Source: Cytophagaceae bacterium (GTDB taxonomy: Bacteria; Bacteroidota; Bacteroidia; Cytophagales; Flexibacteraceae). From it: a stretch of 64,000 bases of DNA. Positions 839-63,320 of the stretch are shown piece after piece. Position 1 is the stretch's first letter. Each line of letters opens with the position of its first letter. Made by a program: the position numbers and the translations under genes. The stretch spans positions 1 through 64,000 of the forward strand of contig CANGYH010000007.1 in assembly GCA_947458545.1 (NCBI GenBank). The letters run 5' to 3'. The notes under the pieces are model-generated. The model did no database searches, had not been told where the DNA came from, and worked only from the letters and a program-made list of their open reading frames with translations.

Positions 839-1500
839 CCACCGTTGCTACTGTAGGACAGGGCGCCAGACCTGTCCCCAATCTACTGTGCAAGGGCTTT
901 GCCCCCCTAATACTTTGCAAGGGCTTTGCCCTTGTCACGTGCTATGGCGAGGCTGCGCCTCGCGCATAGGCCAAGGCGGTAGGGATGGCGTAGGGGGCGG
1001 ATTGTAGCGCGGGCTGTAGCCCGCGACGCCCGGGTGTTCACCCCAGGCTACAGCCGAACGCCTTTTGTAGTGCGGGCTGCCAGCCCGCCTTGCGGATGAT
1101 GCCCAACGGCGGGGTACAAGGCCTGGATGCAGATATTTTCGATTATAGCTTTTGCCTTGATTTGCAAGGGTTTATAAGCGTTTTTGTCGGGAAATGTCAT
1201 GAGGTCTGTCGTGCTGTTGCTCCAGTCTGAAGACTGTGCTGCAAAGGGCGTCACAAGTCATCGCTCCCCTAATCGGGTCGCTAAAGACTTGCGACAGGTT
1301 GCTCGCCGTTGCGCTGGGTTTGCGATAGGGGGGGGATGCAGGGCTGGAGCCCTGCCAGCGAGGGTTACGAGGGCTGGAGCCCTCGAACAGCACACTGTGG
1401 TGAAGACAGAAGCGTTCGGCTTTAGCCGTCGCCAAAAGAGCAGACACTTATCAGTAGCCCCTGGCTTTAGCCTGGGGTGAACACGGCAAACGCCGGGCCA
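839..1500 (+). repeat. Composite hairpin repeat, copy 1 (about 0.65 kb)
   Basis: This non-coding block is a string of short hairpins with different sequences: GGACAGG..CCTGTCC, CAAGGGCTTTGCCCTTG, GAGGCTGCGCCTC, GCGGGCTGTAGCCCGC, GCGGGCTGCCAGCCCGC, CAGTCTGAAGACTG, AGGGCTGGAGCCCT and GGCTTTAGCC. From about 885 to 1500 it is collinear, in reverse complement, with 28957-29614, including non-hairpin text such as TCACAAGTCATCGCTCCCCT. The pair is therefore one long dispersed repeat with scattered changes. Open frames in it are judged spurious. Confidence 0.85.
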
Positions 1501-1789
1501 GCGTAATGCCGAACATTCGACCCATAAGCCATCCGCAGGCGGGCGGACACGCGGGTCCGCCCCTACATGACGTTGGTCGTTATGGCCGGTTTCAAACCGG
1601 CAACCTTGGGTTCGTCCCGGTTGCAAACCGGGACCAGATTTGGAGCCGTGATTGTGGTTTGTGCTACCCCAGGCCTTCCGTTTCAGCGGTCTGGAGACCG
1701 CGGGGGCCTTGCGTGGGTGGGTCCCGGTCAGAGACCGGGACCAGCAACATATTGAGACCGGGACCAGCTTTCAAGGGAAGTCCGAGCTT
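1501..1789. repeat. Further hairpin repeats downstream of sufC
   Basis: Continues the repeat-rich gap after sufC, which is read on the minus strand. Bases 1540-1568 hold GGCGGAC..GTCCGCC followed by CCTACAT, repeated at 59531-59559. Near 1590-1650 are CCGGTTTCAAACCGG and CCCGGTTGCAAACCGGG. Bases 1670-1745 are a copy of the GCGGTCTGGAGACCGC / GGTCCCGGTC repeat, inverted relative to the copy at 150-219. No gene is supported here. Transcripts leaving sufC would run into these hairpins, so a termination role is possible. Confidence 0.75.
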
Positions 1790-9133: not shown

Positions 9134-9273
9134 ACAAAGGGAACTGAGGTGCCAAAGTAAGCCCCCATTGCCCAAATTGCCCAAATCTGGTAGCCCAGGC
9201 GTATATCCATAAAACAAGTATTAAACCGCCCCCCATGGCATCAGCAAAGGGCTGAGCGTTGGGCGCTGCTGAC

Positions 9274-9428
9274 GCTAAGCAAGGTCGCTTAGGCTGTCTA
9301 GATTCTCCCGCTGCAAGTCTCCGACTTGCCAGACGGACGCGGCTCATCGGTGGGGCGGGTTTAGATAAAAGCCGGGCTGTATCAGAGACTTGCAGCGTCG
9401 GAAAGCAAAGTCGGCGACTTTGCTTAGC
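9274..9428. repeat. Nested-palindrome repeat element, copy 1
   Basis: A 155-bp element that begins GCTAAGC and ends GCTTAGC. Internal hairpins are GCAAGTCTCCGACTTGC and AAAGCAAAGTCGGCGACTTTGCTT. The left arm is altered: after AAGCAAGGTCGCTTA comes GGCTGTCTAGATTCTCCC instead of the second half of the first hairpin. The same kind of alteration sits just left of the copy at 45865. Confidence 0.8.
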
Positions 9429-9497
9429 GGGGGTCTTGCCCTGGCGGCAGCGGATGTAGTGGCCTTGGGTGGCGTCGTAGCGCACCTGGCTCCTGTT

Positions 9498-9670
9498 GCT
9501 AAGCAAGGTCTCTGACCTTGCTTTTGGCCGCCGCAAGTCTCCGACTTGCCAGACGGACGCGGCCCATCGGTGGGGCTGGTTCAGGTAGTAGCCGCGCTGT
9601 ATTAAGCTGTAATAGAATGCAAGTCAGAGACTTGCAGCGGCGGAAAGCAAAGTCAGAGACTTTGCTTAGC
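9498..9670. repeat. Nested-palindrome repeat element, copy 2
   Basis: A 173-bp element with 52-bp imperfect inverted ends. The left end runs GCTAAGCAAGGTCTCTGACC to ACTTGC; the right end is its near reverse complement, finishing CTTTGCTTAGC. Each arm contains two smaller hairpins (AGCAAGGTCTCTGACCTTGCT and GCAAGTCTCCGACTTGC). It ends 7 nt from the Abi_C stop codon. Related elements lie at 9274-9428 and 45865-46038. Confidence 0.85.
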
Positions 9671-9677
9671 GGGGGGC

Positions 9678-23419: not shown

Positions 23420-23843
23420 CGGACAGCAGCAGCGGGTGTGGCCCCAAGGTAAGGCGCGGTGGGGGTTGGGGCAAATGGTGGGGCACGGTTCACCTGTGCC
23501 AACGGAAAAAGAGCGGGCGGCTTCAGCCGTTGCTATGCTAGTAGCCCCACGGCTTCAGCCTGGGGCAGCCCCAACCTAACGCACCCCACGCCCTCCGTTT
23601 GAGCGGTCTGGAGACCGCGGGGTACCGGCTGGGTGGGTCCCGGTCTGGAGACCGGTACCAGGAGCCAGCCAATCTCTTATCTCTTATCTCCCCCCCGCCT
23701 TGGCACGGTTTTTATGCCATCTTCGCATAAAGCCGAAACCGTATGGCCCTCTGCCGGGTTAGTACAGTCAGGCTTCTGAAACTAGGGGCCGCAAAGCTCC
23801 CTCCCCTACCTGCCCGGTCGCAACGTACGGCCGGCTTGCCTCT
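23420..23843. repeat. Gap with hairpin repeats before the pterin genes
   Basis: From 23515 to 23575 are two CGGCTTCAGCC hairpin words, matching the set near 1419 and 28957. From 23586 to 23662 is another copy of the GCGGTCTGGAGACCGC / GGTCCCGGTC repeat, here ending CTGGAGACCGGTACCAG. A CTCTTATCTC low-complexity string follows at about 23670. No gene is supported. The promoter of the pterin operon must lie in the last 150 bases, but I see no clear consensus. Confidence 0.7.
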
Positions 23844-28764: not shown

Positions 28765-28823
28765 GCTTTTGGGGCAGTGCACAAGACCATCTGCTGTGCA
28801 AGGGCTGTGCTCCTCCTTTCAAC

Positions 28824-28891
28824 TGTGCAATGGCTTTGCCCTTGTCACGTGCTCTGGCGAGGCTGCGCCTCGCGTGTAGGCCAGGGCGGCA
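28824..28891 (+). repeat. Left 68-bp inverted end of composite repeat
   Basis: Begins TGTGCAATGGCTTTGCCC and ends GGCCAGGGCGGCA. It contains CACGTG and the GAGGCTGCGCCTC hairpin. Its reverse complement lies at 29521-29588 with two mismatches, and close copies start near 63242 and 908. Confidence 0.88.
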
Positions 28892-29520
28892 GACCTGGCA
28901 GCCTGCGGATGGCGGAGGGGTGCGTAGGAGAGGCAATACGCTAGGCAGGTTTTGCCGTGTTCACCCCAGGTTAAAAACCTGGGGCTACTGCTAAGGCGAC
29001 GGCTAAAGCCGAACGCTTTCAAGCCATCGGCATTTGGCTTATCCTCGAGGGAGATGCTGTTCGAGGGCTCCAGCCCTCGTAACCCTCACGGGCAGGGCTC
29101 CAGCCCTGCAACCCCCCTACTGCAAACACGGCGCAACGGCACAAATGCAGCCTGGGCAAAGCCCATGGCACACCTTACCCAAAGCTGGTAACCACATCGC
29201 AACCTGTCGCAAGTCTTTAGCGACCCGATTAGGGGAGCGATGACTTGTGACGCCCATTGTAGCACAGTCTTCAGACTGGAGCAACCCACGCCAAACCCGC
29301 CGACAAGGCCCCGACAAAAACCGCTTGTAAGCCCTTGTAAATGAATGCAAGGGCAGCAAACAAAAAAATCTACTTCATAGCCTTGTGCCCCGCCGTTGGG
29401 CACCTTCTGCAAGGCGGGCTGGCAGCCCGCACTACAAAAGGCGTTCGGCTTTAGCCTGGGGTGAACACCCGGGCGTCGCGGGCTGCAGCCCGCGCTACAA
29501 TCCGCCCCCCACGCCATCCC

Positions 29521-29588
29521 TGCCGCCCTGGCCTACACGCGAGGCGCAGCCTCGCAAGAGCACGTGACAATGGCAAAGCCATTGCACA
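29521..29588 (-). repeat. Right 68-bp inverted end of composite repeat
   Basis: Reverse complement of 28824-28891 with 66 of 68 positions identical. A second GCAAAGCCATTGCACAG unit follows at 29598-29614, mirroring a repeated GTGCAAGGGCTGTGC unit outside the left end. No clear target-site duplication was seen. Confidence 0.88.
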
Positions 29589-29683
29589 GTAAAAGGGGCA
29601 AAGCCATTGCACAGTATATTGGACAAACCGTGCAGACAGCCCTCAACGCGGTACTGGCCGTTTGTAGGGCGCACCAAATCGGC

Positions 29684-45667: not shown

Positions 45668-45864
45668 AAACTTAATTAAGGGGTTTGCTTAGTTAAGGTA
45701 GCATAAACCTGGTCCCGGTCTCCGACCGGGACCCACCCAGCCGTTACCCCGCGGTCTCCAGACCGCTCAAACGGAGGGCATCGGGTGCGATCGTCGGCTT
45801 CAGCAAACGTCTAGGCCCTGTTACCCCGTTAAGCAAAGTCTCTGAGGCTGTTTAGATTTTCCCC

Positions 45865-46038
45865 GCTAAGCAAAGTCTCTGACTTTGCTTTCCGCCGCTG
45901 CAAGTCTCTGACTTGCAATTTATTATAGCATCATAGCAAAGCAGCTTCTACCTTAATCGGCCCTTCCTAAAAGGTAGGCCTAGCTCGCAAGTCGGAGACT
46001 TGCAGCGGCCAGAAGCAAGGTCAGAGACCTTGCTTAGC
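45865..46038. repeat. Nested-palindrome repeat element, copy 3
   Basis: A 174-bp element with 52-bp inverted ends (about 46 of 52 positions matching). The left end begins GCTAAGCAAAGTCTCTGAC and the right end finishes GACCTTGCTTAGC. Its left arm is almost identical to the reverse complement of the right arm of the 9498 copy, so the two are opposite in orientation. The central 70 bases are unrelated and AT-rich. Confidence 0.85.
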
Positions 46039-46121
46039 GACAAGACCGGGACCAACCACTAAATGGGTTGCCAAGCTGAACCTCTTAAACCCCCACCCCC
46101 CTCCCGCAGTTAAACGGGGAT

Positions 46122-63104: not shown

Positions 63105-63320
63105 TTTGTAGCGCGGGCTGATGGTCGGTCACAATTTGGAAGGTAGGGGATTGCCGTGGGGAGGCCCCAACTGTTGCTTCTGTAGGACAGGGCGGCAGAC
63201 CTGTCCCCAATTTGTGCAAGGGCTGTGCCCCCTAATTCTGTGCAATGGCTTTGCCATTGTCACGTGCTCTTGCGAGGCTGCGCCTCGCGGGTAGCCCAGG
63301 CCAGCATGCCTGGCGGCCCC
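63105..63320 (+). repeat. Composite hairpin repeat, partial third copy
   Basis: Contains GTAGCGCGGGCTG, a GATGGTCGGTCAC word, GGACAGGGCGGCAGACCTGTCC (also at 857), a GTGCAAGGGCTGTGCCCC unit, and TGTGCAATGGCTTTGCCATT through GAGGCTGCGCCTCGCGGG, nearly identical to the 68-bp ends at 28824 and 29521. It then stops matching. It is thus an end fragment of the composite repeat. No gene is supported in the 63056-63423 gap. Confidence 0.82.

Follow-up and report, generated by a model that had tools for sequence, protein, structure and literature searches.

Ordered joining of hairpin families associated with several Y1 transposases in a 0.8-kb composite repeat of a Cytophagaceae genome

BIMEs and REPINs of E. 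coli and Pseudomonas are inverted pairs of hairpins that carry a guide tetranucleotide on the 5' side, lie in intergenic regions and are mosaic. As far as is known, they are short, and one REP family (with subtypes) contributes to each. In the TIRtrons described by Di Nocera et al. (2013, PMC3733652), a RAYT-like gene (TIRYT) is flanked by long inverted repeats, some of which are double palindromes, and these TIR repeats are also dispersed singly, as dimers and in clusters. The same article describes mosaic intergenic regions of Neisseria in which different repeat families are interleaved. According to the classification of Quentin et al. (2018, PMC6006769), the repeats of known TnpA-REP proteins have GTAG or GTGG at the foot, and genes of TnpA-Y1 subclass 1.2 are generally devoid of terminal structures. 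Subclass 2.6, which is described there from Bacteroidetes, is flanked by atypical hairpins with copies in the genome.

The repeat studied here belongs to a kind already known from REP/RAYT repeats, BIMEs/REPINs and the TIR families of TIRtrons, as far as the latter are described in PMC3733652. It differs from these in how many families one genome contains, in the diversity of their feet and in the way they are joined, in a set order, into a 0.8-kb composite. Unlike in the TIRtrons of that article, the genome harbours eight Y1 genes whose repeat families are distinct, and the repeats of several families are joined in one ordered composite found at 28 places. The Neisseria repeats mentioned in PMC3733652 are CGTC-type and have no dedicated transposase, whereas each main family here has one. 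In contrast to BIMEs and REPINs, the composite nests at least five hairpin families within 0.8 kb. No report of an ordered multi-family composite was found in the parts of the literature that were retrieved with related terms.

The repeat was analysed in a stretch of 64,000 nucleotides, referred to as the window, which comes from contig C7 of a genome of 3.23 Mb (G000). It is a non-coding, intergenic block of approximately 0.8 kb. The arms at 28824-28891 and 29521-29588 were found to be inverted, with 66 of 68 positions complementary, as reported in the earlier note, and their pairing reached 85 nt at 91% identity. The recurrence of the interior in inverted orientation, previously placed at 885-1500, was confirmed: 28901-29622 aligned with the reverse complement of 878-1540 at 76% identity over 740 columns. 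The end fragment noticed at 63105-63320 was also real and matched at 63213-63318 with 84-87% identity. Folded as single-stranded DNA, the element had a predicted energy of -248 kcal/mol vs -151 +/- 6 kcal/mol for shuffled sequences (z = -15.9). The statement that no frame inside is credible held as well, since a Pfam search of the open reading frames gave no credible family match (best E 0.2) and a comparison with the Y1 transposases of the genome revealed no resemblance. A coding origin was rejected because these frames lacked a family match and the composite contained no RAYT relic. A known RNA family was rejected because the Rfam models gave zero matches to the element.

The left shell of the element is module A (28821-28875, plus strand), which consists of two tandem hairpins, CAATGGC-loop-GCC(A)TTG and GCGAGGC-TGC-GCCTCGC, and represents the terminal repeat of a RAYT on contig C6 (L065:2373-2927). 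It is followed on the same strand by module H (28875-28897), a GTAG-type REP hairpin (GTAGGCCAGGGCGGCAGACCTGGC) related to the hairpins of the L072 RAYT on contig C9. Module B (28963-29017, plus) is a double hairpin with a GTAG foot in reverse orientation and a relative of the terminal repeat of an IS200-like TnpA at C1:1638835 (L048). Module C (29054-29110, plus), a double hairpin with the foot GTTA/GTTG, matched the terminal repeat of the RAYT at C3:191694 (L077) at 98%. The central double hairpin, module J (29204-29300, plus; GTCGCAAGTC...GACTTGTGAC and CAGTCTTCAGACTG, foot GTCA), is the most uniform module and was also found solo; it has no gene of its own and shares stem letters and the GTCA foot with module D, which belongs to the RAYT at C1:1533521. 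The right half lies on the minus strand. It contains module I (29410-29439), a GTAG-type REP hairpin (GTAGTGCGGGCTGCCAGCCCGC) for which no owner gene was found, a remnant of the right-hand B (CGGCTTTAGCCTGGGGTGAACAC, 29437-29468) that was left by an internal deletion and is complementary to parts of 28957-29019, the second hairpin of module I (GTAGCGCGGGCTGCAGCCCGC, 29478-29501), and the right shell, an inverted copy of 28821-28875 (module A, 29537-29591). Beyond this shell, an additional partial A hairpin (29596-29615, minus) is a tandem duplicate of the outer hairpin.

A second composite of the window (852-1744, minus) contains A, I, I, J, C, B and F, with A and F as shells, and the end fragment mentioned above corresponds to solo H and A modules at 63181-63289 (plus). 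Another repeat family, 82-94% identical and present in both orientations, was seen at 147-223, 1666-1744, 23580-23662 and 45709-45789, and its copies at 147 and 1688-1744 coincide with module F. Further related inverted and direct repeats, with identities of up to 83% across 185 bp, occur at 9265-9675 and 45861-46045. J or G modules are followed by a conserved tail in which CGACA motifs are repeated (CACGACAAACCCGCCGACATTCCCCGACAAAAACCGCTTGTAA; 29303-29345 in the window). This tail is also found in L039, L040, L055, L065, L072 and L073, and is present even without J in L057; it resembles the short direct repeats at a transposon end.

The foot of each hairpin was read in the orientation in which the outer hairpin follows the tetranucleotide. 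It was GTGA in 39 of 46 A copies, GTAG in 47 of 56 B copies, GTTA or GTTG in all 22 C copies and GTCA in all 24 J copies. The foot was GTCA in both D copies and GTGG in 16 of 22 F copies, as counted, since families D, E, F and G are absent from the query, only within the stretches around copies of the element. The tetranucleotide was nearly constant within a hairpin family and differed between families (A, B, C, F and J); module G is different in having AGGC at this position. The account of subclass 2.6 in PMC6006769 gives no GT[AG]G consensus, whereas the families described here have the feet GTGA, GTTA/G, GTCA and GTGG, and their repeats, unlike those in that account, are nested. In the outer hairpin of module A, pairing has been kept through nine two-sided changes at one pair, where nine sequences have G-C, most have T-A and seven are unpaired.

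Eight Y1_Tnp genes were found in the genome. By the NCBIfam cut-off, seven of them scored as REP-associated tyrosine transposase (NF047646) and one as IS200. An inverted double hairpin of its own flanks each of seven genes, and the eighth (L072, C9) has single GTAG hairpins. Modules A, C, D, E, F and G, together with the single hairpins of H, flank NF047646 proteins in inverted orientation. The main modules are the terminal inverted repeats of different HUH/Y1 transposase genes located elsewhere in the same genome. The look for a transposase with matching termini, which the earlier note had advised, led to the RAYT at C6:80274, whose terminal inverted repeat is 94% identical to the ends of the window element. 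A 3' piece of this A-RAYT gene joined to an A repeat was detected by tblastn at L065:2135-2230, with a DNA match to L048:5069-5230; it shows how fragments of terminal repeats originate through deletion. Distant relatives of the RAYTs were found in one Bacteroidia MAG, one Saprospiraceae MAG and one Maribacter MAG.

Proteins A, C, D, E, F and G carry the motifs NH[LIV]H, WQ and YIH.NP (with S for N in D and E and L for I in F) and, judged by these motifs, are assigned to the TnpA-Y1 subclass 2.6 type, whose motifs are the same in the description in PMC6006769. Protein B has the signature Y---Q--HH in the form YIKNQRAHH. Judged by this motif, it is assigned to subclass 1.2 (PMC6006769), with which it shares the IS200-like size and the Bacteroidota host. 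Unlike the genes of subclass 1.2 as characterized there, gene B has clear inverted double hairpins with approximately 56 copies, and inverted hairpins around genes of this type were also present in several genomes of the same family. Such genes with the subclass 1.2 signature and inverted flanking hairpins were noted at L048:1318-1749 and in L084, L087, L092, L093, L099 and L104, and their hairpins had dispersed copies where tested. The remaining Y1 gene encodes a short GTAG-type RAYT.

As the earlier note had suggested, the genome and its relatives were searched with the element. Its copies comprised 123 matching pieces over approximately 36 places, all in its own genome, and none was found in 38 relatives at E 1e-5. 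None was found in 394 other genomes of the class either, in a search that scored two candidates per genome and that weak copies could escape. The phage and plasmid collections contained no match to the element, and no viral contig had the exact A-module pattern. A phage or plasmid origin was rejected because of the lack of matches in the collections.

The modules were represented by profile HMMs, with which the sequence surrounding the copies was annotated. In the 28 core composites (clusters with B plus C or J), the modules followed the order shell> (H>) (I>) B> C> J> (I<) B< (I<) (H<) shell<. The arms, approximately 200 bp long, are inverted copies of each other with the non-hairpin spacers included, and these spacers are conserved both among copies and between the two arms. 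J and C were on the same strand in 15 clusters and on opposite strands in none. Of the 22 C modules that do not flank their own gene, 21 had a B at most 40 bp away on the same strand, mostly at a spacing of 22-25 bp. Therefore, the composite appears to have been copied as a block, and most likely C entered once and was then copied along with it. The identity among copies had a median of 79% and was at best 93% over 273 bp; being old and divergent, the copies give no sign of recent movement. Arms within a single copy resembled each other slightly more on average (81%) than arms taken from different copies (75%), with wide scatter.

The shells were less uniform. Eight clusters had A at both ends and two had A plus an additional G; four had A on one side and G or F on the other, and several were F-based. 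Composites bounded by A/F, A/G and F/F have related cores, and the swap point is the junction of hairpin and spacer beside the conserved CTGCGGATGG spacer. Because the A, F and G shells are interchangeable, the composite is also a mosaic. Many copies are truncated, and in L071 two A arms remain without a core, as after an internal deletion. With shells of A, F, G or mixed type, the composites do not have the fixed shared termini of classical IS and MITEs. The two A modules in the window form an inverted pair of one hairpin, as in REPINs and BIMEs, but the composite as a whole is not a short unit of a single repeat family.

Nearly all clusters are located in intergenic gaps. For the clusters of at least 300 bp with two called neighbours (n = 32), the flanking genes were divergent in 12 cases, tandem in 12 and convergent in 8. 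The gene for the T9SS protein PorV is among the neighbours of composites and, together with the relatives of the RAYTs, points to a Bacteroidota host. A comparison of orthologous loci, also proposed in the earlier note, yielded an empty site at one locus. The L051 composite lies between a gene for an M29-type peptidase and a gene for a 432-aa protein, and in G004 (contig C24), which belongs to another genus of the same family, the orthologues of these genes (69% and 48% protein identity) are adjacent in the same order and orientation. They are 17 bp apart in G004 vs approximately 0.75 kb at L051, part of which is made up by a separate B repeat. G004 is thus the empty counterpart for the L051 composite, at one locus and by synteny at the protein level. 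The region upstream of sufD was unusable as a second empty site because the upstream gene differs: in relatives, sufD lies closely 3' of another gene on the same strand, and in G000 a different gene is found there. There was little conservation beyond the outer border of module A, and a consensus of the flanks established no conserved flank, target duplication or target motif. To our knowledge, IS200/IS605-type elements make no target-site duplication.

Taken together, the repeat is considered, with a probability of roughly 0.8, to be a composite non-autonomous element in which double hairpins from the ends of several HUH (Y1) transposases of the same genome are combined. In effect, it is a large nested REPIN/BIME, that is, an element of the BIME/REPIN/TIRtron type that is unusually large, ordered and multi-family. 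Both halves of the previous description as a non-autonomous mobile element or a large REP-type cluster are retained, since this is a REP-type cluster with a block-copied core and one empty counterpart. The remark that no described family was known stands for the composite, which was unmatched in the collections searched, but not for its hairpins, which are RAYT/IS200-like HUH ends of a kind described in PMC3733652 and PMC6006769. By analogy with TnpA-REP and IS200/IS605, as presented in PMC8266576 and PMC6006769, each RAYT would act on single-stranded DNA and nick the hairpin of its own family at the foot tetranucleotide. The RAYTs may then move or copy hairpin pairs, and hairpins of one family would have been inserted into or beside those of another. 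The assembled shell-B-C-J-B-shell composite could subsequently have reached further intergenic sites by being copied as one block, and later swaps of modules and deletions between copies would have given rise to the mosaic. The A-bounded form is most likely moved by the RAYT at C6:80274, a candidate because its terminal repeats match the ends of the element.

Block copying is supported by the order and the spacers, and its agent may be either the A-type RAYT or recombination. That the whole composite moves as one transposon, with the A double hairpins as ends, the C6 RAYT acting in trans and the remainder as cargo, is a possibility that falls short of even odds. The outer border of A, the A-bounded or A-plus-adjacent-G composites, the fixed internal order and the empty site in G004 are all in line with it. 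However, composites with related cores are bounded by A/F, A/G and F/F, no near-identical pair occurs among the copies, and an interior of 0.6-0.7 kb far exceeds that of known REPINs. Shells vary from copy to copy and in some copies even from one end to the other, which does not fit the idea that a single RAYT transposed the entire block by itself, and because of the variable shells and truncations, the simple picture of one unit with fixed ends does not fully hold. Varying boundaries without any empty site had been expected to indicate local duplication of hairpins; the boundaries do vary (A, F or G shells and truncations), but an empty site exists at L051. A more tentative reading, again short of even odds, is that a nested multi-family REPIN, assembled from the hairpins of several diverged RAYTs with GTNN-type guides of their own, multiplies as a block, can be moved by several transposases instead of just one and has an exchangeable shell.

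Pure local accretion, in which independent insertions at preferred sites repeat the same order without copying of a block, is improbable and already disfavoured. RAYT and IS200 enzymes are sequence specific, and replacements at the same position, namely, C by G (L043), J by I (L057) and A-H by an F-linked hairpin at the CTGCGGATGG scaffold, would agree with it, but it does not account for non-hairpin spacers common to copies and both arms or for the near-exclusive, evenly spaced placement of C beside B or its own gene. Even less probable is that a host function as bidirectional terminators, mRNA stabilisers or protein-binding sites keeps the clusters and that their spread is secondary. Intergenic placement and strong hairpins speak for such a function, and these roles have been proposed for other REPs in PMC3733652. 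However, 12 of the 32 larger clusters are flanked by divergent genes, a setting that requires no terminator, and convergent gaps are not preferred; the distribution of the gaps therefore does not favour a terminator function.

With eight related Y1 transposases, matched by hairpin families that differ in their feet, this one genome provides a natural series in which the guide-sequence rule of RAYTs is directly testable. Separate REP families have been welded into an ordered element that is spread block by block, which points to a possible path by which simple palindromes could grow into larger non-autonomous elements.

Other repeats were seen in and around the composites. An insert of approximately 130 bp with inverted ends (ATGGTCATTTC ... 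GAAATGACCAT) and a CCCCCTCTCCCC/GGGGGAGAGGGG core was present in the composites L052, L061 and L066. It is a separate MITE-like element whose position differs among composites, and pieces of it occur in L053 and L070. Heptanucleotide repeats were observed inside the composites L050, L060, L047 and L051 and at the cluster edges in L054, L062, L072 and L073; they had the form (TTATCTC)n in the composites and (GTTGAGA)n next to them.
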